Below, one piece after another: positions 11,527 through 56,161 of a DNA stretch of 64,000 nt (within the stretch, counting starts at the first letter, position 1; each line of letters begins with the position of its first letter). The notes beneath the pieces were generated by a model. The model was not told where the DNA came from. It made no database searches and worked only from the letters and a program-made list of their open reading frames with translations. The position numbers were made by a program, and so were the translations under genes. Source of the stretch: Ruminococcus sp. (GTDB lineage Bacteria > Bacillota > Clostridia > Oscillospirales > Ruminococcaceae); NCBI RefSeq assembly GCF_017549005.1, contig NZ_JAFYYT010000035.1, forward strand, positions 1 to 64,000, in the 5' to 3' direction.

Positions 11527-11872
11527 TTACCTCCTTTTCAAGATCATACTGTCTCTGTGCGTATTCGTAGATGTTTTCTGTTCTGTAAGGTCGCTTCTTA
11601 GGTCGTATGAACCGTGATGTTATGAAGATCTTTGCAACTTTTTCAAATGGCATACCGTTCTTTTCATACATAGCCATGAGGAAAAAAGGCATGGCTATGA
11701 TGATAAGAAGGAGCATTGCAAGAGTGTTGCCTATATGGCTTCTGGTGAGGAAATATACAGGGACGGCAGTAGCCGTCGCTGTACTGAACCATATAAGCTG
11801 CCTTTTTGTTAGGTTGAATACGACTTTTGTCTTGACCTTGTTCAAATCCTTAGGAACCTGTACATAAGGCAT
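11438..11872 (-). CDS. PrgI family conjugation protein
   Basis: 144 residues. MPYVQVPKDLNKVKTKVVFN then two adjacent transmembrane helices (about 25-45 and 50-70) followed by PFEKVAKIFI and RFIRPKKRPYRTEN are the PrgI (VirB3-like) signature. It sits just before virB4, as usual; VirB3/PrgI and VirB4 function as a pair in the membrane channel. The last ~29 residues (Lys/Arg-rich) are encoded in the overlap with virB4. The start is behind GGGAGGACTTTATAA. Confidence 0.85.
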   Translation of the reverse strand: MPYVQVPKDLNKVKTKVVFNLTKRQLIWFSTATATAVPVYFLTRSHIGNTLAMLLLIIIAMPFFLMAMYEKNGMPFEKVAKIFITSRFIRPKKRPYRTENIYEYAQRQYDLEKEVNDIVYNKNKTNRKTEKNGRSCRKKGSSRR

Positions 11873-13253: not shown

Positions 13254-15017
13254 TTATGCGTTTACGGTTCCACAGTCATATACCTCGACTGTGTCTGTGC
13301 TTTTGATCTTTAGCTTATGAGACAGGTACTTCTCGATATCGAAAAAGTTTTTTTCATCAGCGTCATACGTTAGAGCGTATTTTGGATGCTTCGTATAATC
13401 GTATTTGTTACTCAGAAAAGGTCTGACACCTCTAAGCTGCAAAATACACTTGTTTCCGTCCATAACGCTGAGTTCATCCATGCTCATAAGCTCTTTTCCC
13501 GTTTTCTGATAATTCAGAGAGTGGGAAGTCTCTTTGCCTCTGCTTTCGCCTGTATTGTAGAGGTCAATTGTCTCCTTTCCAAGTATTTCGGAAAGTTCTT
13601 TCAGTGTGGTCTTTTCCTTGCCTCCGAGAAACAGTGTTGTATCGCAGTTGCCAACGATAGTATCAGCATTATCCTTGTATATGGCTTTCAGTTGACTCTG
13701 AGCCTGGAGTATAACACAGGCTGATATCTCACGGCTTCGTATTGTTGCGATGAGCTTCTCAAACTTCGGTATCTGACCGATATTACTGAATTCGTCAAGA
13801 ATACAGCGGACATGAACAGGCAGGCGTCCGCCATGTTTGTCATCTGCTTTATCACAGAGAAGATTGAAAAGCTGAGTGTACATTATGGCTACGATGAAGT
13901 TAAAAGTATCATCCGTATCGGAGATTATGACAAAAAGTGCCGTCTTTTCATCGCCTAACGTATCGAGCTCAAGCTCGTCATATTCTGTGAGTTCACGCAG
14001 TTCCCTGATATCAAAAGGAGCAAGTCTTGCTCCGCAGGAGATAAGGATACTTTTGGCTGTTTTGCCGGCTGCAAGCTTATACTTTTTGTACTGCCGTACA
14101 GCAAAGTGCTCCGGATTCTCAGCTTCCAATTCATCAAAGAGGCGATCTATAGGGTTTTTGAATGATTCATCATCCTCTCTTGTCGCTGATGCATTGATCA
14201 TTTCTATCAGGGTGTTCAGATTTTTTTCATCCTCAGGACCTTCGTACCAGATATACCCGATAAGTGCCGAATAATACAGTCTTTCTGCCTTGATCCAGAA
14301 ATCTTCGCCGCTCTGCGCTCCTTCTCCCTTTGTATTGGCTATTATGGTGTTTACCAGTTTCAGGATATCTTTTTCTGAACGAATATACGCCAATGGGTTA
14401 TAGTGCATGGATTTTGCGAAGTTGATAGTATTCAGGATCTTTATTCTGTACCCTCCTTTCAGTAAGGCATTTCCGACTTCATTTACAACTGTACCTTTCG
14501 GATCGGTCACTACATAGCTGCTGTGCATCTGAAGAAGGTTTGGTTTTACGAAAAAACGGGTTTTACCGCTTCCTGAACCGCCGATAACAAGAACATTCTT
14601 GTTCCTTGCGTACTTTGGTCCTGATTTTGGACGGTTATCCATAGTCAGCCTTTCGGTCTCAGTCAGAATGATGTTGTCCTTAAAATCTTCTGCCATATAC
14701 GGCTTGATATCTTCTGCTGTACCCCAACGGGCTGAACCATATTCTACGCCTTTACGGTATTTCTTTGCATTTTTGCCTTTTATCCAGACAATTGCTTTAA
14801 TAAGAACTGCTCCCGCAGTTCCGATAAGCAGATCAACAGGTCTGAAACTTGGCAGCGGAACAGAGAATACACTTCCGAAATTGTTCATAGCCTCTATGAA
14901 CTTCTCCCCGAATGAAGAACCCGAAGCAGAGGTAAATACCTGAGAAGCTTTGTTGAAAAAGAAACCTACTCCTAAAAATGGAACTATCTTAAGAAATTTC
15001 TGCTTATTGAACTTCAT
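13254..15017 (-). CDS. VirD4-like conjugal coupling ATPase (CD1115 type)
   Basis: 587 residues. Two N-terminal membrane segments (about 10-30 and 60-80) are followed by VEYGSARWGTAEDIKPYM, the Walker A motif GGSGSGKTR (146-154), YVVTDPKGTV, VRCILDEFSNIGQIPKFEKL (Walker B) and ILQAQSQLKAIY. This is the type IV coupling protein, which recruits the relaxase-DNA complex to the mating channel. Its start overlaps the pcfB stop by one base (TGATG); PcfB and coupling protein usually act together. Confidence 0.92.
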   Translation of the reverse strand: MKFNKQKFLKIVPFLGVGFFFNKASQVFTSASGSSFGEKFIEAMNNFGSVFSVPLPSFRPVDLLIGTAGAVLIKAIVWIKGKNAKKYRKGVEYGSARWGTAEDIKPYMAEDFKDNIILTETERLTMDNRPKSGPKYARNKNVLVIGGSGSGKTRFFVKPNLLQMHSSYVVTDPKGTVVNEVGNALLKGGYRIKILNTINFAKSMHYNPLAYIRSEKDILKLVNTIIANTKGEGAQSGEDFWIKAERLYYSALIGYIWYEGPEDEKNLNTLIEMINASATREDDESFKNPIDRLFDELEAENPEHFAVRQYKKYKLAAGKTAKSILISCGARLAPFDIRELRELTEYDELELDTLGDEKTALFVIISDTDDTFNFIVAIMYTQLFNLLCDKADDKHGGRLPVHVRCILDEFSNIGQIPKFEKLIATIRSREISACVILQAQSQLKAIYKDNADTIVGNCDTTLFLGGKEKTTLKELSEILGKETIDLYNTGESRGKETSHSLNYQKTGKELMSMDELSVMDGNKCILQLRGVRPFLSNKYDYTKHPKYALTYDADEKNFFDIEKYLSHKLKIKSTDTVEVYDCGTVNA

Positions 15018-15499
15018 CAGAGTTCCACTTCCCTCGTTCTTGTCTTTTCCCTTTTGAGTTCCTTGTTCTTTGGAGGAGTAAGCTCATTCAGCCGAGTTTT
15101 TATTGACTGCTTTTCTTCCTGCTCTTTCTTCTGTTCACGGATATTCAGGAAATCCTTGAAAGCTTTAGTCAGTATCTCACTGTCCTTCGCACGGAAAAAA
15201 AGGATATATTTTGGTGGTTCTACTGATTTGTCCTTTTTCAAGGAATAATCTATGCCATATTTTCGGGCGGTCTTTTCAAAAGCCTTGATATTCTGGTCGT
15301 TTATCTCGATATTTGTGACCGAAGCATTATCATTTCCTCTGATAAGCTGCTTTAAGGACTGTTTCCCGCGAATTACTTGAGGATTTCGATTTTTTTGTAA
15401 TTCAAGAAGCTTTTTCAACACTTTAACAAGAACGTTTGTAGTTACTTTGGTTGATCTGAATGACAAAGCAACAATTTTTTCGTTATTATAATCCTGCAT
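15017..15499 (-). CDS. PcfB family conjugation protein
   Basis: 160 residues. NEKIVALSFRSTKVTTNVLV, GKQSLKQLIRGNDNASVTNI, KAFEKTARKYGIDYSLKKDK and PPKYILFFRAKDSEILTKAF are PcfB signatures. PcfB proteins accompany the VirD4 coupling protein in Gram-positive conjugation. The C-terminal third is a charged helix rich in Lys and Glu. It has an AAGGAGGCAGTC ribosome site and overlaps virD4 by one base. Confidence 0.88.
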   Translation of the reverse strand: MQDYNNEKIVALSFRSTKVTTNVLVKVLKKLLELQKNRNPQVIRGKQSLKQLIRGNDNASVTNIEINDQNIKAFEKTARKYGIDYSLKKDKSVEPPKYILFFRAKDSEILTKAFKDFLNIREQKKEQEEKQSIKTRLNELTPPKNKELKREKTRTREVEL

Positions 15500-15570: not shown

Positions 15571-16380
15571 TTATTCTGTTCCGTACAGGTCGTGATTGAC
15601 CTCTGCCGCATAGTAACTGTTGATAGTTGAGGGAGCGTTGTAAAGAGCTGTACGAAGATATGCCTTGATGTTTCTGATTTTTGTGGTATTGTTGTCAAGG
15701 CAGGAAAGAACATATTCGATATGAGAGGAGTCGATTTTCAACAATCGGCTTCTTACAAGTTCAGTTGGAACAGCTTCCTTGTCGATTATCATTGACTTAG
15801 ATGATGAACATATACATTCCAGCATGATCTCAACTATTTCATCAAGCCTTGAACTGTCAACCTGTTCTCTGAGTATCTCATAATCGATATTTTCATAAAT
15901 GATTTCCCTGTAAATTCTCATCTTATCCATCATATCCAGCTGATTGATAGATAAGATATCAGGTAAGTCTTTATTTGATCGTTCTTTATTTGATTTCTCT
16001 TTACTTAATTGTCCCGAATTATCCCAACCAGGTTTTACCTGTCCGGAAAAATTCCTGTCAGGTGAATCAATGATAGGTCTGGAATTAAGAGGTTTCTGAA
16101 AAAAAGTATACTGCATCTGACCGTATCTACCATTACGGTTTCTTTCACGGTATCTGCTGAGATATCCGGCAGCTTCAAGCTCCTTTAAAATAGAGGAGAT
16201 CGTATCCGAACATTCAAGGCAGATAGACGATAGCCCTTCAATTGTCATATCCCAGTCGGGAGGAAGCGAAAGGACCAGAGCCTGAAGTCCTTTTGCCTTC
16301 AGGGAGAGCCTTTTGTCCCTCATCAATTCATTGGATATTACGGTAAAACCGCCTTTCAGCTCAACTTTACAGTACGCCAT
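15571..16380 (-). CDS. DUF6017-type helix-turn-helix / replication initiator-like protein
   Basis: 269 residues. The N-terminal ~90 residues form a winged-helix domain (KGGFTVISNELMRDKRLSLK, AKGLQALVLSLPPDWDMTIE, LKELEAAGYLSR) like the RepA/DnaD-type initiators of ICEs and plasmids. A Ser/Asn/Lys-rich linker (~110-140) follows. The C-terminal part (ILSINQLDMMDKMRIYREII, YENIDYEILR, IRNIKAYLRTALYNAPSTIN) matches DUF6017. It probably controls element replication or maintenance; this is inference. The start codon overlaps the stop of the short upstream ORF (TGATG), so the two are coupled. Confidence 0.78.
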   Translation of the reverse strand: MAYCKVELKGGFTVISNELMRDKRLSLKAKGLQALVLSLPPDWDMTIEGLSSICLECSDTISSILKELEAAGYLSRYRERNRNGRYGQMQYTFFQKPLNSRPIIDSPDRNFSGQVKPGWDNSGQLSKEKSNKERSNKDLPDILSINQLDMMDKMRIYREIIYENIDYEILREQVDSSRLDEIVEIMLECICSSSKSMIIDKEAVPTELVRSRLLKIDSSHIEYVLSCLDNNTTKIRNIKAYLRTALYNAPSTINSYYAAEVNHDLYGTE

Positions 16381-16697: not shown

Positions 16698-16930
16698 ATT
16701 TTTCAGTGTTTATCCTACTTCAAGACAGAACACCATTTTGATATCTCGCCACTGATTTTTCCGTAAATAGCTTCCATGAGCCTTTTTATAGGCTTTCGCC
16801 ATTTCAAAGGTTATCGGAAACTCCCATGAAATCGTGACTTTAGAACTACTACTTAGAAGCGATAGCAGCCTGTGCTGGAATAAGGGTAGCTTTCATGATC
16901 GTTCATAATCCCACCAACACCAATTTTCCC
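16698..16930. other. Intergenic stretch between ICE rep operon and array end
   Basis: No convincing gene. The only short frame with a coding look is a 15-codon minus-strand ORF at about 16850-16895 (MKATLIPAQAAIASK). An interrupted inverted repeat AGCC...GGCT lies near 16778-16793. A weak leftward promoter-like pair (TTGAAG, 17 bases, AATAAT) overlaps 16695-16725. The stretch separates the conjugation module from the oldest end of the CRISPR array. Confidence 0.4.
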
Positions 16931-16953
16931 ATTCAATTCACATGGAGCGCGAC
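16931..16953 (-). repeat. Degenerate terminal CRISPR repeat
   Basis: Plus-strand ATTCAATTCACATGGAGCGCGAC keeps both ends of the repeat but has lost about nine internal bases including the palindrome. It sits one spacer length (34 bases) beyond the last intact repeat, as expected for the oldest repeat. Confidence 0.8.
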
Positions 16954-19900
16954 CATTGATGTTCTGTAAATTGTTAAGCCACGGATAATTTCAACTCACA
17001 CGCCCACGTGGGGCGCGACATTACAGGGAGACAGCTCGGGAAATCGTAATCAAGATTTCAACTCACACGCCCACGTGGGGCGCGACCTTCCCAATTTGTT
17101 TGAAATGTAGACTCATTAATATTTCAACTCACACGCCCACGTGGGGCGCGACTGGAGACTGAAGCCAGGTGCAGACCGTCTTCACAGATTTCAACTCACA
17201 CGCCCACGTGGGGCGCGACGCAATTATCTGTTGAGTAAGCCTTCTCAATAATAATTTCAACTCACACGCCCACGTGGGGCGCGACTTCTTTGCATTATTC
17301 CATTTGGACATGTCTGAGACATTTCAACTCACACGCCCACGTGGGGCGCGACAACATCGTACCAACATGACACGCTGTAAACGAAAAATTTCAACTCACA
17401 CGCCCACGTGGGGCGCGACAAGAATCTGTTAATATATTCTCCGATGAATATCATTTCAACTCACACGCCCACGTGGGGCGCGACTATGGATCATCACGAC
17501 CATTTTTAACCTTCCATGATTTCAACTCACACGCCCACGTGGGGCGCGACGATCGATAAGTACAACATTAAGATGGCAAATCTTAATTTCAACTCACACG
17601 CCCACGTGGGGCGCGACCGTAATATGCAGTGAATACTTCAGCAGCTGATTTAATATTTCAACTCACACGCCCACGTGGGGCGCGACTTAAATCGCGTTAT
17701 ATTTCCATCAAATGTATATGATTTCAACTCACACGCCCACGTGGGGCGCGACGTACAAAACCCCTGACTTCAACCGATATTTCTATATTTCAACTCACAC
17801 GCCCACGTGGGGCGCGACACTTACGACAGCACAGCCGACAGACTGGAATCTAAATTTCAACTCACACGCCCACGTGGGGCGCGACCGGCTTCTGTCAAGC
17901 TGCTTCTGAAGCACGTCAATTTCAACTCACACGCCCACGTGGTGCGCGACCTGAGAATTGACAGAATAGTATCTCAGAAGCTTGCATTTCAACTCACACG
18001 CCCACGTGGGGCGCGACCAAAACAAAACAGTCACCGAGTAGACAACAAAGTAATTTCAACTCACACGCCCACGTGGGGCGCGACTTTATCATGATCTGCA
18101 CATGATACACGAATGCAAAATTTCAACTCACACGCCCACGTGGGGCGCGACGACAATTGTGAATAATGTTGCACAATTCTTAGGTATTTCAACTCACACG
18201 CCCACGTGGGACGCGACGCGCATTTTACTTGTGCTGCTATAAAGACGGGCTGAATTTCAACTCACACGCCCACGTGGGGCGCGACCACCTCTTTATGTTC
18301 ATAGTATCTGTATCATAAGCTGAATTTCAACTCACACGCCCACGTGGGGCGCGACGTTAGGATTTTGTGTAATTTTTGAAAGCTTTGAATTTCAACTCAC
18401 ACGCCCACGTGGGGCGCGACACTCTGGATGGACTGCATATAACAAAATGCTACAATTTCAACTCACACGCCCACGTGGGGCGCGACCGCTCGACGCCGTA
18501 TATAATATCATTTACGGAAAGAATTTCAACTCACACGCCCACGTGGGGCGCGACTGATATGCCGCTCTTGACGTTAAGCCGCAGATACATTTCAACTCAC
18601 ACGCCCACGTGGGGCGCGACCGTACAAATATTGATGGTACATATGGCACATCCGATTTCAACTCACACGCCCACGTGGGGCGCGACCTATCTGACGTTTG
18701 AAGAAAGCATATTCATGAGCATTTCAACTCACACGCCCACGTGGGGCGCGACTCACACCGGTTGCAGCCGGCACTTGTACCGTAAATTTCAACTCACACG
18801 CCCACGTGGGGCGCGACAATCATACTTTGAATACGTTCCTAATGGAATCAATATTTCAACTCACACGCCCACGTGGGGCGCGACATCTTCCATGACGCGC
18901 TGCACCCCCGTATATAAAATTTCAACTCACACGCCCACGTGGGGCGCGACATGATAATGTCAAGCACATCGTGATAAGCTGCTGCATTTCAACTCACACG
19001 CCCACGTGGGGCGCGACTCAGATCTATGAAATTTTAAATGACATTATGAATATTTCAACTCACACGCCCACGTGGGGCGCGACGTTAAGCTGCCGGTTGC
19101 TCCGCCGACGGTGAGAGAATTTCAACTCACACGCCCACGTGGGGCGCGACAGGCTTCTGTTGTTGTCTCGGAGCCACTATGGGATTTCAACTCACACGCC
19201 CACGTGGGGCGCGACTTGGAACTGACCGACAAACAAGTGCAACATGTCATTTCAACTCACACGCCCACGTGGGGCGCGACTCATACTCCTTTCAATATAA
19301 CCATACTTGCAGAATTTCAACTCACACGCCCACGTGGGGCGCGACGTCATACTGCCCGTTAACGGGTTGCTTGCAATAACATTTCAACTCACACGCCCAC
19401 GTGGGGCGCGACTATATCGGTGCCAAACATTGCATTGATACGCTTCATTTCAACTCACACGCCCACGTGGGGCGCGACCGCATATGTCAGGGGCTTAAAA
19501 GCAAGGATTCAATTTCAACTCACACGCCCACGTGGGGCGCGACCAGATCGGCAGCGCTACAGGTCCTGTTCTTACAATTTCAACTCACACGCCCACGTGG
19601 GGCGCGACGTATGATAGATATCATGTTCTTGCATTCCTGTCTATTTCAACTCACACGCCCACGTGGGGCGCGACCATTGACGCGCTTCAAGCCCTCTTGG
19701 ATAGTTACATTTCAACTCACACGCCCACGTGGGGCGCGACCTTAAGAGGCTTGAACGAATAAAAGCTTGTATCATTTCAACTCACACGCCCACGTGGGGC
19801 GCGACGTTTACGTTTAATCTCGTTAATCCTGGAAGCATTGAATTTCAACTCACACGCCCACGTGGGGCGCGACTTTTTATTTTCATATTCGGCGCGCGCG

Positions 19901-21326
19901 TCAGCCGTATTTCAACTCACACGCCCACGTGGGGCGCGACGATAATCTTACTACGGAATATAAAGAAATATCTTTATTTCAACTCACACGCCCACGTGGG
20001 GCGCGACCGTTTCCGCTGTGTTAATAGCGTAACAACGACAAATTTCAACTCACACGCCCACGTGGGGCGCGACTGCACTGGTACGAAACACAAACCGACG
20101 CCTGGAATTTCAACTCACACGCCCACGTGGGGCGCGACTTCAAGAACGAGCAAATATGCTCTCATAAATTCATTTCAACTCACACGCCCACGTGGGGCGC
20201 GACCTTTCATGTTTGCAAAGTATGCTGACGATCTGACAATTTCAACTCACACGCCCACGTGGGGCGCGACTCGCACTCTTATTCTACCTTTTCTATCAGT
20301 AGCATTTCAACTCACACGCCCACGTGGGGCGCGACATTTTAAAGTCAATATCAGTTAAAACGGCTCGGAATTTCAACTCACACGCCCACGTGGGGCGCGA
20401 CGCAATGTACTTGATAACATTCTGATATAGTCGCATTTCAACTCACACGCCCACGTGGGGCGCGACCCGCAGCCGACAGCCTTTTTCCGATGACAACTTT
20501 TCATTTCAACTCACACGCCCACGTGGGGCGCGACGAAAGTCCTCGAGCTCGTCAAACGTCCGGCCGTATTTCAACTCACACGCCCACGTGGGGCGCGACG
20601 CGTTATGCCAAATCAGGAAGCTGCAACAGGTTCATTTCAACTCACACGCCCACGTGGGGCGCGACCATCTTCAGCCCTCATTTCTTCGAGTGCTGCTGAA
20701 TTTCAACTCACACGCCCACGTGGGGCGCGACCGACTGAAGTATTATCGTTAGTTTCCGATAAGTCAATTTCAACTCACACGCCCACGTGGGGCGCGACAT
20801 AAACGTTATAAATCTTGTGGCTGATCTTATCATTTCAACTCACACGCCCACGTGGGGCGCGACCGTGGCTGCTGGGCGAGCAACAAGCATCTGGCTATTT
20901 CAACTCACACGCCCACGTGGGGCGCGACCGCATTTTATCTTGCCTATATAACATCTGCTCTGATTTCAACTCACACGCCCACGTGGGGCGCGACCGGCTC
21001 TGGTTCGTTCACGCTTCCACAAATAGCATTTCAACTCACACGCCCACGTGGGGCGCGACGTTAGTCATTAAAACGCTGAATCCTTCATCAAGATTTCAAC
21101 TCACACGCCCACGTGGGGCGCGACACGACCTTATAAAAAAGGCAGACGACATACTCAATATTTCAACTCACACGCCCACGTGGGGCGCGACCAGCCGTGA
21201 CCGAGAATGATATCAGCCTGATTACATATTTCAACTCACACGCCCACGTGGGGCGCGACGTAGCTCTAATTCCATTGTTCTGTGCTACCTCTCTATTTCA
21301 ACTCACACGCCCACGTGGGGCGCGAC
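16931..21326 (-). CRISPR. Type I-C CRISPR array, 66 full repeats plus one degenerate
   Basis: The 32-base repeat on the minus strand starts GTCGCGCCCCACGTGGGCG and ends TGTGAGTTGAAAT, the I-C repeat style with an internal palindrome (CGCCCCACGTGGGCG) for the crRNA hairpin. Full copies run from 16988-17019 to 21295-21326, about one per 66-67 bases; spacers are 33-38 bases. The distal end carries a shortened, mutated copy (16931-16953), giving 66 spacers. Two internal repeats have single changes: GGTGCG in the copy at 17919 and GGGACG in the copy at 18186. Cas2 and the leader lie at the right end, so transcription runs leftwards and the newest spacers are near 21.3 kb. All open frames seen across the array are repeat artefacts. 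Confidence 0.98.
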
Positions 21327-21474
21327 TCTATATATTGTGTATAAAGAGCCGCACAGCCACTGTGAGCGGACATTTATAAGCAAAATCGTACTATTTTGTT
21401 CATATTTCATTCATAAGCATTGTCTTTAGGCAGGCGAACCTGCCGCGTTTTTAATATTATAATGGGTTCGCTTT
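21327..21474 (-). promoter_or_regulatory. CRISPR leader
   Basis: The 148 bases between the cas2 stop and the first repeat are AT-rich and non-coding. On the minus strand they hold a TATAAT (21456-21461) and end TACACAATATATAGA at the repeat, where adaptation machinery would act. No other gene separates cas2 from the array. Confidence 0.75.
21429..21452 (+). terminator. Rightward hairpin-U-tract inside the leader
   Basis: GGCAGG-cgaa-CCTGCC followed by GCG and TTTTT reads as an intrinsic terminator on the plus strand. It would block antisense transcription leaving the array towards cas2, or pair as a structural element of the leader. Confidence 0.5.
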
Positions 21475-21765
21475 TCAAATTATAAGAACACCTTCGGGAT
21501 CATATGTCGACTTTGAACCATAATGTTCAACTCGACGTTTCCAGTTATTTCCGAGATAATAAAATCGGATACTGTCATGAGCTTCATCAATAAGCTTTAA
21601 AAGGCTGTCTTTAACTTTCAGAAAAGTACCATAATCAACATCTATCTCAAACACTGAATTCTGTACTCTCTGCCCGTAATTCTGACATTCTTTTGCAACT
21701 TTTCTCAGTCTGCTTTTTCCCTTTGCATCAGTTGTAGATACGTCATAGCTAACTATAACCATCAT
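21475..21765 (-). CDS. cas2: CRISPR-associated endonuclease Cas2
   Basis: 96 residues, MMVIVSYDVSTTDAKGKSRL at the start; the beta1 strand VIVSYDVST carries the conserved Asp of Cas2. NYGQRVQNSVFEIDVDYGTF and IRFYYLGNNWKRRVEHYG complete the ferredoxin-like fold. The family dimer bridges two Cas1 dimers during spacer integration. ATG at 21765 follows AGGTGATCAAT; a GTG at 21774 directly after the cas1 stop is an alternative. Confidence 0.95.
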   Translation of the reverse strand: MMVIVSYDVSTTDAKGKSRLRKVAKECQNYGQRVQNSVFEIDVDYGTFLKVKDSLLKLIDEAHDSIRFYYLGNNWKRRVEHYGSKSTYDPEGVLII

Positions 21766-21774
21766 ATTGATCAC

Positions 21775-22797
21775 CTACTTCATAAGGAAACATGGGTATT
21801 CTTCTATTTCTCCTCTGATATATTTTGCAAGCAGCGAACTCTGGATAAACGGAAGAATTCCAAGCGGTATTTTTTCTCCAAGATATGGATGTGTTATTGT
21901 ACTTCTCTTTTTTTCCTGCCATGCAGAAAGAACCTTTTTCTTTCCGTCCTTAGAGAGATATACCGCACCGCTTTCCTGTCTGTCAAAATCATAAATGTTC
22001 AGTTTTTTCAAATTGATAAGCGTAAGGACTAATCTTTCAGCTATACAGCGTGTTTCCTCAACAAGGTCACATGACAAACTGCTTCTGCCTGATTTTAATG
22101 CATGATAAAAGCCATAACAGCTGTCAAGTCCCACACTTTCAAGAGCAGAAGTATATGAGCTTGTCATTATAGTATATAAAAACGAAAGAACAGCGTTCAC
22201 AGGATCAAGAGGCGGACGTTTGGTTCTTCCCGTTACCGCAAAATCTTCTTTCTGACTAAGTATAAGCTTATCAAAAATATTGAAATATGACTTTGCACAG
22301 CTTCCCTCAAGTCCCATTATGGTTTCCGTATCATTCAGCTCGTAAACGTGCTCCATGCCGCTTTCAAGATATTCAATACATCTGCTCAGTTCACCATCAG
22401 CATCGAGCTTAGGGTTGTCTTTCATGGAGCGCTTTATAAGATATCTTGTATTTGAAAGCTTTGCGGCAACAGTATTCTGAGGAAGCAAAATATCAGGCTT
22501 GGCAAAACGCTCAAACTGAGACTTTCTAAGGAAAATATTTCCTTTTGTTTTACCTTGTACTCTGGCGAGAAAATGTCCTTGTGGTGAGATAAAGCTGATA
22601 TTAATGCCCAGATCGGCACACTTTCCCATTAAGGCAGGCGAACACCCAAGATAGTTGAAGCAGTAGATATCTTCAAGATTAGAAAAAGGCAGTCTGAACT
22701 TTTCTTTATCCTCGCATTTGCAGAGAATGTTTTCGCCGTCAAGGGTAAGCCAAGCAGTCTCATCAAGAATATAAAGTGAATTCAACAATTTTTTCAT
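21775..22797 (-). CDS. cas1: CRISPR-associated integrase Cas1 (type I-C)
   Basis: 340 residues. MKKLLNSLYILDETAWLTLD opens the N-terminal beta domain; the C-terminal helical domain has IMGLEGSCAKSYF (metal-binding Glu), SFLYTIMTSSYTSALESVGL, GFYHALKSGRSSLSCDLVEE (His and acidic ligands). These are the standard Cas1 active-site blocks for integration of new spacers. It overlaps cas4 by four bases and abuts cas2. Full length for I-C Cas1. Confidence 0.96.
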   Translation of the reverse strand: MKKLLNSLYILDETAWLTLDGENILCKCEDKEKFRLPFSNLEDIYCFNYLGCSPALMGKCADLGINISFISPQGHFLARVQGKTKGNIFLRKSQFERFAKPDILLPQNTVAAKLSNTRYLIKRSMKDNPKLDADGELSRCIEYLESGMEHVYELNDTETIMGLEGSCAKSYFNIFDKLILSQKEDFAVTGRTKRPPLDPVNAVLSFLYTIMTSSYTSALESVGLDSCYGFYHALKSGRSSLSCDLVEETRCIAERLVLTLINLKKLNIYDFDRQESGAVYLSKDGKKKVLSAWQEKKRSTITHPYLGEKIPLGILPFIQSSLLAKYIRGEIEEYPCFLMK

Positions 22798-23468
22798 TGG
22801 ATATCAGTTCCTTTCTGAGACATGACTATATCCCTGACACTGTACTTTTTTTCTTTCGGAAAACAGATATCTGCCATTGAACATCCAGAGCATTTCTGCC
22901 CCTTTTTTCGTACAGGCATTTTCTTTTCTTCAAGAAGCTTCCTCATTTCGGAAAGCAGCTGTCTGAGCATAGCATCGTATTTTTTATACTCCGTATCAAA
23001 CGGAAGCTTAACACGCTTTCGCGTATCAGAGTAATAGATATAAGCTTCACTGTCACATTTCCATATTTGATCCGCACATATTTTCTGCGCAAACACCTGT
23101 ATTGCGTCAGTTTCATTGAAATCATCACTCTTGGGAGCTTTCGGTTTATATTCTATGATTCGCACCTGAAAATACCCGTCATGCCCATTAAGCACAGTTC
23201 CGGAATTACTGCGAACAAATTCTATGCAGTCGGTAATACCGAAAATATCATATTCCTCCGCATCATTGTAGACAGAAATTCCGCTGCGAACTATCTTTTG
23301 ACTGTCAGAATATGAATGACTACCGTCATGAACGTGCTGATGCTGTAGATTTGCCTTGACCACAAATGCATTCTCAGACCAGTCATCATTCAACTCAAGA
23401 AGTGCAAATCTTCTCGGACAATACATATAATGCTGAATACAACGGATATTAATAGTATGATCGTTCAT
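22794..23468 (-). CDS. cas4: CRISPR-associated exonuclease Cas4
   Basis: 224 residues. MYCPRRFALLE supplies the first Cys (C17), IIEYKPKAPK the PD-(D/E)xK lysine, and KKGQKCSGCSMADICFP the last three cysteines of the iron-sulfur cluster. In type I-C, Cas4 trims prespacers and selects the PAM together with Cas1. It overlaps cas7 and cas1 by four bases each. Confidence 0.95.
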   Translation of the reverse strand: MNDHTINIRCIQHYMYCPRRFALLELNDDWSENAFVVKANLQHQHVHDGSHSYSDSQKIVRSGISVYNDAEEYDIFGITDCIEFVRSNSGTVLNGHDGYFQVRIIEYKPKAPKSDDFNETDAIQVFAQKICADQIWKCDSEAYIYYSDTRKRVKLPFDTEYKKYDAMLRQLLSEMRKLLEEKKMPVRKKGQKCSGCSMADICFPKEKKYSVRDIVMSQKGTDIQ

Positions 23469-24337
23469 ATCTTTTCGATCAGTTCAACGCCCGTAGGCAT
23501 ATCCTTATCAACTGTAATATCATAATCATCAAATTTTCTTGGCGGTTCAATTCCTGCCTTTCTTTCAATCTTGATCTTATCGAAGAGAATATGTGCCGGA
23601 GCATTTCCTATAGCAGATTCGTGCTTGAAAATATACAGTTTTCTGAGACACATTTTACCTCTTGCAGCACTTCTGTCATTTTCAAACATATTGATTATCG
23701 CTGTCCACAGCAGTTCAAGATCTTCATCTGAAAAACCAGTGACTTTTTGTGCGAGCATTGCAGAAATATAGCCCTCTGCACGATAAAGTCCATAAGAAAT
23801 AAAACTCTTTTTACCCATTTCACTCTGCTTTTTCTCATTAAAATCCTTATCCGTTGTAACTGCCTGACGTGTAACCGTTATATCCTGAACATAAACAGGA
23901 TCGATACTCTTTGCAAAATTAATCTGTACAGGACCTCTTACTATTCCGCAAGGATCATCACCGGTACTCATAACAGCACCGAAAGTACGAACATCATAAT
24001 AGTTTGCGCAGATGTATTCCTGAGCTTTTTTTACATCATCTGTTTTCTTGCCTTTTTGACCTTTATCCAAGCCTAATGCATCATATGCTTCAGTAAATTT
24101 TGAGTTAAGTGAGCGATCGGCCTTTACGAGAATATTATAACCGCCTTCACCTTCCTTGTACAGCTCAACAAAATTCCTTATCTTGCGTTTAAGACATACA
24201 TCTGTAACGATACCATATGATGTTTCTGGATCAGTTCTCGGCATATTGCCTGCATCGGGATCTCCGTTGGGATTACCGTTCTCAACATCAAAAAGCATAA
24301 CGAATTCATATCTGTTCTTAATTGCATTGTTTTCCAT
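23465..24337 (-). CDS. cas7: Cas7 (Csd2), type I-C Cascade backbone
   Basis: 290 residues from ATG at 24337, behind AAGGATGGTCAATT; an in-frame ATG six codons earlier lacks spacing. FVMLFDVENGNPNGDPDAGN and DVCLKRKIRNFVELY are the Csd2 signatures; GPVQINFAKSIDPVYVQDIT and GLYRAEGYISAMLAQKVTGF follow. Multiple copies coat the crRNA spacer. It starts 14 bases after the cas8c stop. Confidence 0.95.
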   Translation of the reverse strand: MENNAIKNRYEFVMLFDVENGNPNGDPDAGNMPRTDPETSYGIVTDVCLKRKIRNFVELYKEGEGGYNILVKADRSLNSKFTEAYDALGLDKGQKGKKTDDVKKAQEYICANYYDVRTFGAVMSTGDDPCGIVRGPVQINFAKSIDPVYVQDITVTRQAVTTDKDFNEKKQSEMGKKSFISYGLYRAEGYISAMLAQKVTGFSDEDLELLWTAIINMFENDRSAARGKMCLRKLYIFKHESAIGNAPAHILFDKIKIERKAGIEPPRKFDDYDITVDKDMPTGVELIEKI

Positions 24338-24351
24338 AATTGACCATCCTT

Positions 24352-24714
24352 TCATTTACCTTCATTAGAAGTATATAATTTCTTGTTCATTTGATAATAA
24401 CCTACGATAAAACGTCCCTGATCATCGAGATTAAGTGTCGCAGGAAACTCGCCGTCAAGACTATTCATGATATTACCTATCATTTTATTGTAATATACCT
24501 CAGCACCATCGCTCAACTTTCTCAAATGGTTCTGTGATAGCTTTGCAAGCTTGGGAAATACACTTGCAGGTCTTGAACAAGCTGAAGCAAAGTATGAATC
24601 CTTGATAGTGCGATTAAGATTTCCTCCCGAAGAATCCTGCTGTATCTTTTCTAATACCGCAAAAAGTCCGCCGCAGAGATAAGCAGGATTGTTGTTTTCT
24701 TCATTCCATGCCAT
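24352..24714 (-). CDS. cas11c: Cas11c small subunit from internal start within cas8c
   Basis: In frame with cas8c, ATG at 24714 follows AAAAAGGAGGAAATAATC, a near-ideal Shine-Dalgarno (24721-24729). Translation from here gives 120 residues beginning MAWNEENNNPAYLCGGLFAV and sharing the cas8c C-terminus. In type I-C systems the Cas11c small subunit is known to be made by internal translation of cas8c, as a ~122-residue C-terminal product. Size, position and ribosome site all agree. It would form the minor filament of Cascade. Not yet shown for this strain. Confidence 0.8.
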   Translation of the reverse strand: MAWNEENNNPAYLCGGLFAVLEKIQQDSSGGNLNRTIKDSYFASACSRPASVFPKLAKLSQNHLRKLSDGAEVYYNKMIGNIMNSLDGEFPATLNLDDQGRFIVGYYQMNKKLYTSNEGK

Positions 24715-26139
24715 GATTATTTCCTCCTTTTTGTTTTTTCTGTTAAGACAGGCTTTTATTATGCCTGCTCGTGTGTCATTGAGCTTGATAAAATGATTTT
24801 TATCGTCATCACTGTCCGTTTTCACACGCCTTATAACCGTCGACAACAATGCATCGGGATATTTTGTGCTATTGAGTGCAGCAAGCATTATAGCCGACAT
24901 TAAAGGCGGTGGTACTTTATCGTTTGTCGATTTAGGCGATATCAATTCTCTTGTAATACTGCCAAAATACACGGGACGTGTGTTGCTTTCATTTATCATA
25001 ATATCACGCTGATGCTTCAAAAGATTACCAAGCACATCTCCAAAATTACCTTTATATATAAATTTCTGACATATCCTTGATGAATTCGGAGTCAAACCTG
25101 CAATATAAAACGTGACACTTTTGTCTATTGAAATATCAGTAGTAAAGCCTTTTCTTGCTTGTGCCATTAATGAAGCAATATCTTCTTCTGCTTTTTTGTC
25201 TTTAGTGTTACCAAAAAATGACGAGAAAATATCACATTCTGCTGTATCGTCATTTTTTACAGCGAACCATATAATCACCATATCTCCTAAAAGACAATAG
25301 TGTTTTTTATCTGACAGCAGCTTATTGAAAATAGCTGTATATTTTTTCATTGTCTTTTCAGAAACATTGCTATTATACGACTGGGTTTTGCCGTAGGATT
25401 CAAATGCAGTGTCGTTCATACATACGAGCTGACAGCCTGACGCCTGTCCGCCAGGAAACTTCATAATTTTATCATGAAGTCTTGCCTGAACTGCTTTTTC
25501 ACCTGAAATACCACATATTGATTGTACCTCGTCATCTTTGCTTTCATTTTTTTCAGAAAAACCTTTTAAGTATTTACTGATATATTCTTCATCCTTTTCA
25601 AGGTAATTGGACTCATTTTCAATTGAAAAGCCAAAATATGACCCCTTATATCCCTTTCCCAGCTCTTTCAGCAAAGGATTCTCAACGCCGCCTTCAGGAG
25701 TCCATTTTTCGACGAATTTTCTGTATGCACTACAAGCTGGAGATTCAATTCCTTCCAAAAACGCAAGTTCATGTTCAACAAATGCAGCATGAGATTTTCT
25801 TGCTTTATTTGTTTTGTCATCAGGAGTAAAAGAATCATTATCATAATTCAGACCAAAAATATACAACGGGCGATGCTCAATGTAATTTGATTCTATTCCT
25901 GGTTTCTGAGTCCTTACAGGAAGGATTGCTTTTCTCGGTACCTCAACAGTTTTATCGTTGCCTTTTTTATCCTTGATCGTCTTTTTCTCTTTAAACGGAA
26001 TTATATCCTTTAAATCACCAGCCTCGGAAATGATTATACGGTAATGTATCTCTTGTTCCGCAAAACCATCGGGGATTTTCTTTGAATCATCATTTGATGA
26101 TTGCTTATCAGCATAATCACACAGTGCTTTTATCAGCAT
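24352..26139 (-). CDS. cas8c: Cas8c (Csd1), type I-C Cascade large subunit
   Basis: 595 residues. MLIKALCDYADKQ at the start, FGLNYDNDSFTPDDKTNKAR, LGDMVIIWFAVKNDD and FYIAGLTPNSSRICQKFIYK are Csd1 features; the C-terminal ~120 residues form the helical small-subunit-like region. The protein recognises the PAM and helps load target DNA. It overlaps cas5 by seven bases and has a GGAGGGGATAAT ribosome site. A second strong ribosome site and start codon lie inside the gene (see Cas11c). Confidence 0.95.
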   Translation of the reverse strand: MLIKALCDYADKQSSNDDSKKIPDGFAEQEIHYRIIISEAGDLKDIIPFKEKKTIKDKKGNDKTVEVPRKAILPVRTQKPGIESNYIEHRPLYIFGLNYDNDSFTPDDKTNKARKSHAAFVEHELAFLEGIESPACSAYRKFVEKWTPEGGVENPLLKELGKGYKGSYFGFSIENESNYLEKDEEYISKYLKGFSEKNESKDDEVQSICGISGEKAVQARLHDKIMKFPGGQASGCQLVCMNDTAFESYGKTQSYNSNVSEKTMKKYTAIFNKLLSDKKHYCLLGDMVIIWFAVKNDDTAECDIFSSFFGNTKDKKAEEDIASLMAQARKGFTTDISIDKSVTFYIAGLTPNSSRICQKFIYKGNFGDVLGNLLKHQRDIMINESNTRPVYFGSITRELISPKSTNDKVPPPLMSAIMLAALNSTKYPDALLSTVIRRVKTDSDDDKNHFIKLNDTRAGIIKACLNRKNKKEEIIMAWNEENNNPAYLCGGLFAVLEKIQQDSSGGNLNRTIKDSYFASACSRPASVFPKLAKLSQNHLRKLSDGAEVYYNKMIGNIMNSLDGEFPATLNLDDQGRFIVGYYQMNKKLYTSNEGK

Positions 26140-26852
26140 ATTATCCCCTCCCTGTATTTTGAAACATCAATAACTCCGTCTATCATATGAGGACGGTAAT
26201 ACATCGGATCTGCTTTGTCGGAAAATTTGGGTTCATCCCAATTATTGTTTATAGGTTTACCACAGTCAGCAAACTTTACACCGTATAGCATAAAACCGAG
26301 ATCAATATCACCTTTCAGTGAAGTATCTACTTGCGACAAATCAAAATCATCAACAAGTTCTATTCTGCTTACGGAAAACTCCCTGCAGCCAAGGCACGGC
26401 TGTCTGAAGCATTGACCATTGCGCAGTCGTCGAAGCATAATATTATAGTGCTTCTCTTCACTTTCATCTTCATGATCAGACCTTAGTCCTGTAAGCTCGA
26501 AATGGAACTCAACACCATACTTTACGTCTTTAAGCAGCATACCTGCACGTTGACTTCTTGCCTCAGAAGCATATATCTCAGGACTACCATTACCATTCAT
26601 CTGTGATAAAACCGATCTTTGAGGAATCTTGGTTTTTATTTCATTCCTTCTTACGTTAATGAATTTTATAGGATTGAAAACTATTATCCTGTCCACAACA
26701 ATACGAATAGCAGGCTTCCAGTAGACTGATTTTATCAGTCCTTCCATAGCTGAGACCGTCGGAACATCATAACTCACACGCTCCACTTTCATTTCGGGAC
26801 GAGTAAATAGCGCATAATCGCCCTCAACCATTATTTTAAAACCATAACTCAA
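26133..26852 (-). CDS. cas5c: Cas5c (Cas5d), type I-C crRNA-processing subunit
   Basis: 239 residues. GFKIMVEGDYALFTRPEMKV, VERVSYDVPTVSAMEGLIKS and YWKPAIRIVVDRIIVFNPIK are Cas5 I-C hallmarks; in this subtype Cas5 replaces Cas6 and cuts the pre-crRNA. The start appears to be TTG at 26852, six bases after GGGGAGG; the first ATG (residue 8) would cut the first beta strand. The gene starts 17 bases after cas3. Confidence 0.94.
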   Translation of the reverse strand: MSYGFKIMVEGDYALFTRPEMKVERVSYDVPTVSAMEGLIKSVYWKPAIRIVVDRIIVFNPIKFINVRRNEIKTKIPQRSVLSQMNGNGSPEIYASEARSQRAGMLLKDVKYGVEFHFELTGLRSDHEDESEEKHYNIMLRRLRNGQCFRQPCLGCREFSVSRIELVDDFDLSQVDTSLKGDIDLGFMLYGVKFADCGKPINNNWDEPKFSDKADPMYYRPHMIDGVIDVSKYREGIIC

Positions 26853-26869
26853 ATTGACCTCCCCTTTCT

Positions 26870-29047
26870 TTAATAAATGTAATCCGGCTGATAATTGATA
26901 TCAAGTCCTGTTTCATTTTTATAATAATCATTATTTGAAAGTACATATACACCATATCCTGTGTCATGTATCAATCCTGATTTCAGCGCATTATCAAACT
27001 CTCCATGTAATTTAAGCGACACAGAAAAACGCTGTAGCTTCCTTCGGACATCTTTACCACCAAATCTAATTTGAGCTAAAAGATCTGATGTTTCATCACA
27101 GTTATTTATGACAATACTTATCGTTTCGTCCTTAATAAGCTCAAAGCTTTCTGCATATGTCCTGAATGGTATTCTGTCAAATCCGCTACATTTCTTAGCA
27201 ATAGTATTCTCTTCTATGACATCATCAGAAAAACTAAAAAGTCTATTGTAATACTCTTTTATACATTCTTCGGATGAGATATCATTCCTTTTGTCAAGCA
27301 TATCTTTTACTATACTGGAACGAACTTTCATATCATCTTGAGGTTTCTCATCAGTCTCAAAAATAAAAACATCTCCGTGATCCATGTTACCATCACGGTT
27401 GCATCTTCCACCCGACTGCAAAATGCTGTCAAGTCCTGCAAGCTGTCGGAATACCGCCTGAAAATCAAAATCAACTCCAGCTTCAACAAGCGAAGTAGAT
27501 ACAACTGTTATTTTAGGAGCAGTATCCGGATGTTCACGCAGATTTATTAAATCTTCGCGTATATGCTCTATTGTTTCGGAACGATGCTGAGGCGTCATAT
27601 ATGTTGATAGATGATACTTCCTGCCTGATAATAACTGATAGGTATTTCTGGCTGTTTTTCTGCTATTAACAATAATCAAGCTTGAACCATACCTCATAGC
27701 TTTTTCAGCAATTCTTTCCATGTCAGTCATTCCGATATTAGAATATATACATTTCTGAAAGAAACTAAAGTCTTTCTTATCAGTAATCAGCTCTTTAAAA
27801 GAATTATCACCAATGTAACGTTTAAACATCTCGGTATAATCAGGCATTGTTGCCGAAAGAAAAATACATTCGCTGTTCAGATATTTTGTAATATATCCTA
27901 TGGCTCTCAGACATGGCTGTAAATACTCTTTTGGAAGCATATGCACTTCATCGAATACTATCACAGAATCGGCAATATTGTGCAGTTTTCTAAGCGATGA
28001 AACTTTATAATGATACAACGACTGAAAAAACTGGACACTTGTAGTTATAATAACAGGAGCATCCCAGTTTTCTGTAGAACGCTTAAGCTTTTCAAGCGTA
28101 GAATCATTTTCTGTATCATAGCAGTAATTTGAATGATGCTGAACTATATCTGTATATTTACCAAACATTTTTTCAAATATCTCAGCTGTCTGCTCGATAA
28201 TGCTGGTATATGGGATAACATAAATTATACGTTTCTTTTTATGCTCAACAAGCTTTTTCAGAGCTATTTTCATACTACAAAGAGTTTTTCCACTACCAGT
28301 TGGCATATCAAGAATATTTATTCGCGAATCATTCAGACAATTTTCAAAAGCTTGATCCTGTAATGACTTCCTTGCTTTTTTCAACTGAGTATCTAACGTG
28401 AAAGAATTGAGTTTCTTATCAATTATTTCAAGCATTTCTCCAAAATCAGATTTAAGCCCTCTTTCTATATCAGGCGAATAAAAAATCTCTGTATCAATAT
28501 AGTCTGCGTCAGTAAGGCAAGAAAAAAGATAACGAGTGAAAAAAGCGTATGTCTCAATCAATTCAGTCGTGTCTTTAGATTTGTGAAGAATTGCTGTAAG
28601 CTCTGAATAATCAGGCAGTTCAAGCTTTACTTCGTCCTTGTATGAACTGTAATCAGCTGTACCTTTATATTTTTCCATGCGTTTAAGTTTGGCATGAAGA
28701 GTACTGTCCGTGTCCGCATTATCAGCAGCTGTACCACCGTCAGGCAATCCTGTATGATGTCCTGCAATACAGTATTGAAGCAAATATGTCATTTGTTCAT
28801 CTACTTCATTTTTTACAAGTTTTCCTATTTCTATAGCACCGCAGGCAGAATGTTCATATTTTATAGTACTTCCTTTAAGTCTTTTCTGAAAATCTTCCGC
28901 ATACTTACCGAGATCATGCGCAATACCTGCTTTATATGCATAATCACGCATAAGCTCAACTGAATTTGAGGCTGCTTTTTCTGCTACGCCTATAAGATGC
29001 TCTTTTATTGTTTGATTTCGATTATCTATTGAATGAGCATTTTTCAT
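26870..29047 (-). CDS. cas3: Cas3 HD nuclease-helicase (type I-C)
   Basis: 725 residues from ATG at 29047, behind CAGGAGTGATAAA; upstream in-frame codons lie within the promoter. The HD domain has GIAHDLGKYAEDF (H44, D45) and AGHHTGLPDGG (95-105). The helicase has Walker A MPTGSGKT (248-255), FDEVHML (365-371) and VSTSLVEAGVDFDFQAVFRQ with SGGRCNRDG (motif VI). Cas3 is recruited to Cascade-bound DNA and degrades it processively. First gene of the cas operon. All catalytic motifs look intact. Confidence 0.96.
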   Translation of the reverse strand: MKNAHSIDNRNQTIKEHLIGVAEKAASNSVELMRDYAYKAGIAHDLGKYAEDFQKRLKGSTIKYEHSACGAIEIGKLVKNEVDEQMTYLLQYCIAGHHTGLPDGGTAADNADTDSTLHAKLKRMEKYKGTADYSSYKDEVKLELPDYSELTAILHKSKDTTELIETYAFFTRYLFSCLTDADYIDTEIFYSPDIERGLKSDFGEMLEIIDKKLNSFTLDTQLKKARKSLQDQAFENCLNDSRINILDMPTGSGKTLCSMKIALKKLVEHKKKRIIYVIPYTSIIEQTAEIFEKMFGKYTDIVQHHSNYCYDTENDSTLEKLKRSTENWDAPVIITTSVQFFQSLYHYKVSSLRKLHNIADSVIVFDEVHMLPKEYLQPCLRAIGYITKYLNSECIFLSATMPDYTEMFKRYIGDNSFKELITDKKDFSFFQKCIYSNIGMTDMERIAEKAMRYGSSLIIVNSRKTARNTYQLLSGRKYHLSTYMTPQHRSETIEHIREDLINLREHPDTAPKITVVSTSLVEAGVDFDFQAVFRQLAGLDSILQSGGRCNRDGNMDHGDVFIFETDEKPQDDMKVRSSIVKDMLDKRNDISSEECIKEYYNRLFSFSDDVIEENTIAKKCSGFDRIPFRTYAESFELIKDETISIVINNCDETSDLLAQIRFGGKDVRRKLQRFSVSLKLHGEFDNALKSGLIHDTGYGVYVLSNNDYYKNETGLDINYQPDYIY

Positions 29048-29089
29048 TTTATCACTCCTGAACAATATATCTGCAATATTACATAAAAC

Positions 29090-29118
29090 ATTATAACATT
29101 TTTGATAAGTTATGTCAA
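29090..29118 (-). promoter_or_regulatory. cas operon promoter
   Basis: Minus strand TTGACA (29113-29118), 17 bases, TATAAT (29090-29095): both boxes are perfect consensus. The leader to the cas3 start is about 35 bases. Such a strong promoter suggests constitutive expression of the interference and adaptation genes. Confidence 0.85.
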
Positions 29119-29443
29119 TAAAAAACAGACTAAGATATTCTATTTCTTTCAAACTCCAGTTTAAGTAAATATATCAAATTTACAAAATCACATATAATAC
29201 CGCCTTAAAAGTGGTACGTTTGAGAGTGACATCATGCAAAAGAACAACAAATTCGACGCTAATTTTTATTATTATTAGCACGGAAAGGTACGCTGCTTTA
29301 GATTTTTGTTATTTATTTGTTACTTATTGTGGTAAAAAATCACTAAAAATCAGTAAAAATGAAATTAAACGAATTGCTCTGAAACAACGCAATACAGGCG
29401 ATTACTCGAAATAGCACAAATTACAAAAAGTGCTTTGGCTCTC
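29119..29443. other. AT-rich intergenic stretch right of the cas operon
   Basis: No convincing gene. A 67-codon plus-strand frame (29211-29414) has poor composition and no ribosome site; its last third (KISKNEIKRIALKQRNTGDY) is Lys/Arg-rich. The stretch lies between the cas promoter and the tRNA-like sequence, where an ICE end would be expected to hold recombinase-binding sites. Confidence 0.4.
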
Positions 29444-29463
29444 TTCAATTCCCCTCGCTTCCA
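29444..29463 (+). other. tRNA 3'-end-like sequence, candidate attachment site
   Basis: TTCAATT (T-loop), CCCCT (T-stem 3' strand), CGCTTCC (acceptor 3' strand) and A (discriminator) appear in correct order and spacing for the last 20 bases of a tRNA before CCA. The bases to the left do not pair to complete a T-stem, so no whole tRNA is present. An intrinsic terminator follows at once. This is what remains at the distal junction when an element integrates into the 3' end of a tRNA gene. Needs the matching left end to confirm. Confidence 0.4.
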
Positions 29464-29475
29464 GCATCTGATCTA

Positions 29476-29516
29476 TCCCGATATACCATAAATATTATGA
29501 TATATCGGGATTTTTT
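29476..29516 (+). terminator. Intrinsic terminator after the tRNA-like end
   Basis: TCCCGATATA...TATATCGGGA with TTTTTTG on the plus strand: a ten-pair perfect stem. No complete plus-strand gene ends before it, so it appears orphaned, as a tRNA gene's terminator would be after ICE insertion. Confidence 0.8.
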
Positions 29517-29677: not shown

Positions 29678-31288
29678 TCACTTTATTTCTGTCTCAAACG
29701 AGCCGTTATTGTCAGTATCGACTGCAACTCCGATAGTATTCTCGTCCTTTTCAAACAGGAATACCTTAGTATACTCAGTTGAGAATGTTACGTCAGTCCT
29801 TACATCGTCATTGTATGCAAATGCTTTGACATCATTTAAATTTGAAGCCTCAAGCACATAACCGTTATCTTCCTTAGTAAGAGTTGCGTCGTCTACGCCG
29901 CTGCCCTTAACTGAAAAACTATACCAGTCTGTTACCTTTTCTCCGTCATTAAGAACTATCTTGAGATCATAATCCGTGTTTTTACCGCTTACAGAAACTG
30001 AATCCGCCGGTGAGAACTTTGCCTCTGATCCTGAAGAAGCATTTGCCTTGAGCAAGCTGTTTTCATATGACATTGAAAGATCGAGCTCCTCGGGAGTCTG
30101 CACATTAAGTACATAGCTTGAAGAAGAATCGTTCAGTGCAAACATGATCGAGCTGTTCTTAAAGTCATAATCCGCCAGTGACGGAACAAGCTTGATATCA
30201 TCATCAGATGATGTGGAATTAGCGCAGTATACATTCTTGTCAGATTCCTTGACCAGCTTGTAGTTGCCCTTTATCTGAGCTGACTGAAGAGTAGCGATAT
30301 ATCTGCTGAATGTAGGCTCGTCAGAACCGTCAATATATCCGTGATAATTGATAAGATCAATATCATCTGTTACTAATCCTAAATAGTCATCATAATCCGA
30401 GCTGAGTTCATATACAGGAATAGTCCATGAACCGTCTGTTGTGCTGAAATACAGGCAGAAGTCCTCATCGTAGTCTACGCTGTTATTATCGTATATAAGG
30501 ATCTTTCCGTTATACTTCTTGCCGTTCTTGACATAAGTTCCGTACTCAACATCGTATGCAACAACAGCGTGACCTGCAAGGTACATTCTGTTGAAGTATC
30601 CGTAGAAGCATAACAATGTAGGAGAACCGTCCTCAAGGCACTTAATGAGCTTAAGGAGCTTTACGGGCTCAAGTCCGCTTACTGCAAGAGCCATTCTCTG
30701 ATTAGTATGGTCTGTAAACTGAAGTGCAAAATAGTAATTGATGAGCGACTTAACATCGTTTGTAGGAGGACCTGCAATATCATGCAGTGAAGCAGCGTCG
30801 CTCTGCCATTTGTCAGGCTGCATAACTCCGCGGCTTGCAAGTACGGAAGTAGTTGCCATTCCATAACATGAACCTGCCCAGGGAGCATACTTTACATTGT
30901 TGATTATACGTTCCTTTTCTGTATTTTTTAAACCGTCCATGAGCTTGTTCCAATACTCACTGCCCATGAAGTATGTATCACCGAAGTTCTCGGAAGAATT
31001 GCTGAACGACCAGTTATCAGCTCCGTCAACAAACTTTTCCTGGGGTTCGTTCTTTATCATACGACGTATAAGGTCATTGATCTTTCCGATAACGCTCTTC
31101 AGGTAAGAGCTTTCCAGATAGCTGTTCAGATTTGTTCCTGTTCCAACGTCCTGTAACCAATCGCTGAGAATGCTGTCGCCGTAGCCGAATGCATTTGCCT
31201 TCAGGCTGTTTTCAGGAACTCCCCCAATAGATTGTGCGGCAACAATAGTCAGAGCCATTGCTGCACTGATGATTTTCTTTTTTTTCAT
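29678..31288 (-). CDS. Secreted papain/C39-like cysteine protease-like protein
   Basis: 536 residues with a signal peptide (KKKKIISAAMALTIVAAQSI, cleavage likely near KANA). WAGSCYGMATTSVLASRGV (~residues 137-155), AGHAVVAYDVEYG (~237-250) and KILIYDNNS (~262-270) form the Cys-His-Asn order of papain-fold peptidases. A C-terminal region (~370-536) is beta-rich with Ser/Asp repeats and resembles an adhesion-like domain. No dockerin or sortase signal is seen. Proteolytic activity is inferred from motif order only. It is the first gene right of the candidate ICE boundary, with its own terminator. Confidence 0.55.
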   Translation of the reverse strand: MKKKKIISAAMALTIVAAQSIGGVPENSLKANAFGYGDSILSDWLQDVGTGTNLNSYLESSYLKSVIGKINDLIRRMIKNEPQEKFVDGADNWSFSNSSENFGDTYFMGSEYWNKLMDGLKNTEKERIINNVKYAPWAGSCYGMATTSVLASRGVMQPDKWQSDAASLHDIAGPPTNDVKSLINYYFALQFTDHTNQRMALAVSGLEPVKLLKLIKCLEDGSPTLLCFYGYFNRMYLAGHAVVAYDVEYGTYVKNGKKYNGKILIYDNNSVDYDEDFCLYFSTTDGSWTIPVYELSSDYDDYLGLVTDDIDLINYHGYIDGSDEPTFSRYIATLQSAQIKGNYKLVKESDKNVYCANSTSSDDDIKLVPSLADYDFKNSSIMFALNDSSSSYVLNVQTPEELDLSMSYENSLLKANASSGSEAKFSPADSVSVSGKNTDYDLKIVLNDGEKVTDWYSFSVKGSGVDDATLTKEDNGYVLEASNLNDVKAFAYNDDVRTDVTFSTEYTKVFLFEKDENTIGVAVDTDNNGSFETEIK

Positions 31289-56057: not shown

Positions 56058-56075
56058 TATCTTCCATAAGTATTT

Positions 56076-56150: not shown

Positions 56151-56161
56151 TTTTCATATCT

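Follow-up and report, generated by a model that had tools for sequence, protein, structure and literature searches.

CRISPR (clustered regularly interspaced short palindromic repeats) modules on genomic islands at ssrA, the gene for transfer-messenger RNA (tmRNA), are described in Dehalococcoides (McMurdie 2011, PMC3146451), and papers on Pseudomonas aeruginosa place type I-C systems on pKLC102-like conjugative islands (PMC7913775, PMC7092672). In the present study, a type I-C CRISPR-Cas locus of Ruminococcus sp. was analyzed in a window of 64,000 nucleotides (the whole stretch of DNA studied, contig C27:1-64000) from a draft genome of 56 contigs that is 93.8% complete, and was compared with a genus set of 125 genomes, the own genome included. 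The locus stands between the transfer module of an integrative and conjugative element (ICE) and a displaced 3′ end of ssrA, and the initial annotation had read the module and the cas operon as parts of one conjugative element. We consider it rather probable that the I-C locus lies at the edge of an ssrA island and that a truncated ICE, of the type found at ppdK (the pyruvate phosphate dikinase gene), was inserted beside the array; the CRISPR-Cas system probably belongs to the cargo of the island, not to that of the ICE.

Boundary of the conjugative element

The meeting point of the transfer module and the array is marked by two features:

16862..16875, minus strand: ICE attachment core GCWCAGGCWGCTAT, where the conjugative element ends, from the aligned junctions of related ICE loci
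16931..16953, minus strand: degenerate terminal CRISPR repeat, read by eye from the sequence

As the initial annotation had noticed, the array directly follows the transfer module, the last open reading frame (ORF) of which ends at 16676 with no gene before the array. Seven ICE loci were compared with the window, the fragments in genome G120 apart, and homology to the window module stops at 16875-16878 in five of them, at 16827 in G104, and does not extend that far in G088. What lies across this boundary is the ppdK 3′ end in G034, G118 and G042, and other sequence in G082 and G046; GCWCAGGCWGCTAT is common to all six aligned junctions. The own ppdK (C41:105992-108619) holds another island of 25 kb, with the same core at its end, after a serine recombinase. 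The window ICE thus ends outside ppdK, with 55 bases between it and the degenerate repeat, and because this boundary, which five related loci reveal, falls outside the array, the comparison of junctions places the cas locus outside the conjugative element. The proposal that a conjugative element carries the CRISPR-Cas system is not supported.

Other defence genes were also observed at such sites. The 25-kb ppdK island (C41:81108-105992; L180, L171) contains Wadjet-type JetA, JetC and JetD, AbiL-like genes and the terminal serine recombinase, and in G082 (L114:2449-8884) a type IIG restriction-modification gene and an HKD+SNF2 helicase are located directly beside the same ICE end.

Right junction at an ssrA fragment

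On the other side of the cas operon, the following features were found:

29282..29456, plus strand: conserved end arm of integrated elements (~175 bases); similarity reaches 29215 in G022
29444..29466, plus strand: displaced ssrA (tmRNA) 3′ end, right junction, with a 20-base match at 29444-29463
29475..29511, plus strand: displaced terminator-like hairpin, a strong hairpin with a T run (-18 kcal/mol, z -4.7)

The 20-base match had been assigned to the 3′ end of a transfer RNA (tRNA); its origin in an RNA-gene 3′ end is retained, with tmRNA in the place of tRNA. A tmRNA gene was found in 4 of 12 scanned stretches of relatives, and the bases at 29444-29463 agree with its 3′ end at 19 of 20 positions in G120, G094 and G049, whose ssrA is intact, and at 18 of 20 in G040. 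A tRNA was rejected as the integration target because the best tRNA of the own genome differs at 5 of the 20 bases, and the tmRNA of three relatives at one. By our estimate, the probability that a single target of this kind occurs by chance in the window with one mismatch is ~7e-6, or ~4e-4 if ~60 RNA genes are allowed as targets. The crossover point, as placed from the sequence, falls in the T loop, and the ssrA 3′ end repeat is present at the right border. The terminator reported after the match was also recovered at 29475-29511; a consensus terminator scan missed this hairpin and listed two others further right, at 29585 and 29648. No known structured RNA matched over the Rfam threshold at the junction, and the weaker matches looked like chance.

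A 528-base arm query matched in 16 of the 125 genus genomes, own included. The DNA searches scored part of the first-look candidates (5 of 29 in the own genome for the arm, and 40 of 57 for the ssrA region), so copy numbers are lower bounds, and the 15 arm copies aligned are those in the stretches retrieved, not all found. Seven of these 15 end at tmRNA or tRNA-like 3′ ends, with the tmRNA 3′ end terminating three (the window, G120 C23 and G022), a tRNA-Ala 3′ end two (G120 C40 and G067, 1 mismatch to an own tRNA), and a Glu-like end two (G084 and G071 C28, 3 mismatches). The right junction is considered real because the ssrA 3′ end closes an arm that is seen at such ends, and the initial view of an integrated element's right junction was correct in kind, the junction being an ssrA integration scar with a conserved arm. 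The alignments thus mark the arm as the terminus of elements that integrate at RNA-gene 3′ ends and occasionally elsewhere. In G120, the arm and an exact ssrA 3′ end lie ~1.2 kb from genes that flank the intact ssrA in G040 (83% over 6.65 kb); a clean empty site was not obtained, as G120 against G040 leaves 1.2 kb extra. A second copy of the 20-base core, expected by the initial annotation at the left end, was absent from the own assembly at ≤2 mismatches, an outcome that the initial annotation had listed as refuting, though the assembly is incomplete. The ssrA-side genes of relatives, sought in own stretches that are mostly contig starts, gave a weak paralogue match only, and the arm piece had no match when scanned against viral contigs.

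The arm occurs several times in some genomes (L102, L105, L108, L109), between large secreted-protein or polysaccharide-like genes (judged from the sequence) and with no tRNA in these stretches. In G120 (L199:1285-9172), type I restriction and methylase genes with a KAP-type ATPase are located ~0.4 kb from the ssrA 3′ end.

The change in guanine-cytosine (GC) content that had been claimed at the junction was not observed, and a GC shift was rejected as junction evidence, with GC staying at 0.34-0.38 to ~31 kb and rising near 32 kb. The three closest relatives become syntenic with the window from 31,688-31,747, near this rise, and one further gene lies before that point:

29678..31288, minus strand: unknown-family protein between junction and backbone, apparently secreted (signal sequence judged by eye), not syntenic in relatives

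This protein had no Pfam or NCBIfam match, and its relatives in the genus are at non-syntenic places.

Transfer module of the ICE

The window contains mating-pair and coupling genes of the ICE, and the module, which we take to resemble the Tn1549/CTn type, is read away from the array:

8..919, minus strand: very large helicase/methylase-like ICE gene, 5′ part, cut by the contig end and continuing on C45
1982..4327, minus strand: ArdC/YodL-domain ICE protein
4327..6423, minus strand: bacterial DNA topoisomerase family protein of the ICE
6454..7212, minus strand: CD1107-like mobile element protein
9130..11526, minus strand: VirB4/TraG-type ATPase, with 86% identical homologues in G042 and G082
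11438..11872, minus strand: PrgI
12023..12892, minus strand: TrbL/VirB6
13254..15017, minus strand: VirD4 coupling protein, CD1115 family
15017..15499, minus strand: DUF3801 ICE protein
15571..16380, minus strand: DUF6017/HTH_36 protein, start of the ICE

Contig C45 continues the window through an exact 113-base overlap of contig ends, and past the large ICE gene it contains, among others, two sigma-factor-like genes, IS66 genes and a gene for a dockerin protein. The ICE ORFs scanned in the window showed neither a relaxase nor a recombinase, and nor did any of the 13 C45 ORFs of ≥70 amino acids, all scanned with Pfam, one of them without the last 21 bases of its coding end, which lie on the next stretch; the search was confined to these ORFs. 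Because neither gene was found on the window side or on C45, the window ICE appears truncated. By contrast, a MobA-type relaxase and a serine recombinase are present on the G082 contig and may belong to its ICE.

Origin of the locus

We propose that the cas genes would have arrived with an ssrA island, the end of which would consist of the arm at 29282-29456, the displaced ssrA 3′ end and the terminator. A separate Tn1549/CTn-type conjugative element, with the 3′ end of ppdK as its usual target and probably moved by a large serine recombinase, would then account for the module that ends beyond the degenerate repeat, the order of the two insertions being one that we infer. The I-C system would add phage spacers at its leader end and cut phage DNA. 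These steps build on the observed gene content, both boundary sequences and their occurrence in relatives, and the phage matches.

Several observations weigh against this proposal. The island is bounded on one side only, the left ssrA junction not being seen in the draft assembly, and the ssrA, smpB and LD-carboxypeptidase region of relatives was not found among the scored candidates of the own assembly. In relatives, the orientation of ssrA with respect to the GH43 gene is the reverse, and the ssrA island therefore requires an inversion. Tyrosine integrases matched at 11 places in the genome, none of them on C27 or C45, and the own genome yielded no other candidate integrase of the ssrA island, the left part of which is not in the assembly. 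Eight of the 15 aligned arm copies run into other sequence (one partly tmRNA-like), and ARAGORN found no tRNA or tmRNA gene in most stretches around arm copies. The G120 contig with the arm also carries fragments of a same-family ICE, among them one of 365 bases at 97% identity, which makes two genomes in which such an ICE and the ssrA arm occur together.

Given the eight copies that run into other sequence and the ARAGORN result, the arm here could be a solo scar. In that case the cas locus would have resided in the chromosome for longer, a lost element would have left the arm and ssrA fragment as its solo scar, and the ICE would have inserted beside the array at a secondary site, an account to which we give perhaps a third of the credence of the ssrA-island proposal. 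It agrees with the lack of a tyrosine integrase on C27 and C45, with arm copies that lie between ordinary genes, such as that of G022, and with the neighbours of the related I-C loci. These neighbours differ, being for example pyrG and a glutamine-synthetase-like gene (both names judged from the sequence) in strain YAD2003, and no strong arm match was found at these places. Against this account, the arm starts ~130 bases from cas3, the interval from cas to the junction contains no chromosomal gene, and the syntenic backbone is not reached before 31.7 kb.

It is unlikely that the transfer module and cas are both carried by one conjugative element integrated at an RNA gene. The two adjoin, the right junction is real, and the ICE fragments on the arm contig of G120 are in keeping with such an element. 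Nevertheless, five related loci, of which three lie in ppdK, set the ICE boundary at 16,875-16,878, no relaxase or recombinase was seen on the window side or on C45, and G120 keeps ICE fragments only, with no DNA match to the cas operon in the whole of C23 or in C1:1-33200 (G120 lies outside the Cas8c search set). An assembly join of two places at ~16,875 is very improbable, for although the draft has many contigs and 54 of 125 genus genomes contain relatives of the first ICE gene (DUF6017), that gene is matched once in the own genome, and the break falls exactly on the attachment core, as a real insertion predicts.

The analysis tells apart two elements that look like one, locates the real end of the conjugative module, and suggests that defence genes of Ruminococcus accumulate at ssrA and ppdK. 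As a speculation that we regard as doubtful, the ssrA and ppdK 3′ ends of Ruminococcus might be exchangeable docking places for defence systems, and the cas cassette, bracketed by two unrelated kinds of attachment site, might be movable by the ssrA island machinery or by an aberrantly excising ICE.

Type I-C operon and array

The cas genes, listed here with the array and its leader, were assigned by Pfam, PADLOC and NCBIfam models:

21475..21774, minus strand: cas2
21775..22797, minus strand: cas1 (Cas1c)
22794..23468, minus strand: cas4
23465..24355, minus strand: cas7 (Csd2)
24352..26139, minus strand: cas8c (Csd1)
26133..26852, minus strand: cas5c
26870..29152, minus strand: cas3
16988..21326, minus strand: CRISPR array, 66 intact 32-base repeats and 65 spacers
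21327..21474, minus strand: leader, adjoining cas2, partly conserved in L048, L049 and L050 (one masked at its end)

The operon cas2-cas1-cas4-cas7-cas8c-cas5c-cas3 is complete (21475-29152, minus strand), in agreement with the full operon described initially, and I-C-specific models match Cas1, Cas5, Cas7 and Cas8. The count of 66 spacers given earlier was reproduced, with 65 between intact repeats and one added by the degenerate last repeat. The seven-gene operon, the 32-base repeats with a leader beside cas2, and spacer matches with a consistent 5′ flank are those of type I-C, and the locus most likely functions like any ordinary system of this type. Cas8c was matched in 14 of the 100 genus genomes (of 125) covered by its search, own included, with three others close at 67-75% identity. 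Four named related I-C loci of Ruminococcus show no window ICE gene in the stretches compared, and the far side of the array is visible in two of them (L050 and L051), the L050 array being masked. The related operon of L051 looks decayed, its cas7 being reduced to a 21-residue match. Elsewhere in the window, a thiamine pyrophosphate (TPP) riboswitch was located at 56058-56161 on the minus strand.

Spacer targets

Of six spacer pieces compared with viral contigs, two had matches and four had none. Five virus stretches were chosen through the seeds of spacers 5 and 8, so the matches are not a random sample. Comparison of the 65 spacers with these stretches gave 10 matches from four spacers in four of the five (≤6 mismatches), nine flanked by CTT and one by CTC, and reversed spacers gave 0 matches in the same stretches. 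CTT and CTC are usual protospacer adjacent motifs of type I-C. In virus contig L262, spacers 4, 5, 6 and 8 match with 2, 1, 1 and 0 mismatches, respectively, each beside a CTC or CTT flank. Both L262 and L264 contain an exact match to spacer 8, the weakest match has six mismatches (spacer 5 in L264), two matches in L260 fall in ORFs matching phage tail or head families, and L261 contains a 20-base seed only. Spacers 4, 5, 6 and 8 form a leader-side cluster, and because they all match one virus contig, and thus one phage type, recent uptake is suggested.

The initial annotation had suggested that the system could target competing elements; the spacers placed match phages, and no spacer matched the ICE and related loci of this study over more than 16 bases, apart from the array copies themselves. 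The whole array was also searched against phage and plasmid collections, each giving two records judged not convincing, among them one phage record (E 2e-5, 68% identity, 235 bases). No Cas4 relatives were found in viral contigs.

Comparison with known systems

Both CRISPR on ssrA islands and type I-C on conjugative islands are already published, and the locus adds no new mechanism. A literature search on Ruminococcus, ICE and CRISPR listed no paper whose title or opening abstract lines dealt with this subject, and one combining pyruvate phosphate dikinase, serine recombinase and integration site gave no paper. In the kind of its transfer genes, the module is like the Tn1549/CTn-type ICE, the CD1115-family name of VirD4 coming from a model match; unlike them, it has no relaxase or recombinase found in the assembled part.

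The Dehalococcoides ssrA islands belong to a different phylum and their integrases are serine recombinases, whereas here an arm of ~175 bases was found and the left border and integrase were not seen. The pKLC102-like islands of P. aeruginosa are described as encoding cas within the element, whereas here the end of the ICE excludes cas; the likeness lies in the same subtype beside conjugation genes and in matched spacers that are mostly directed against phages.

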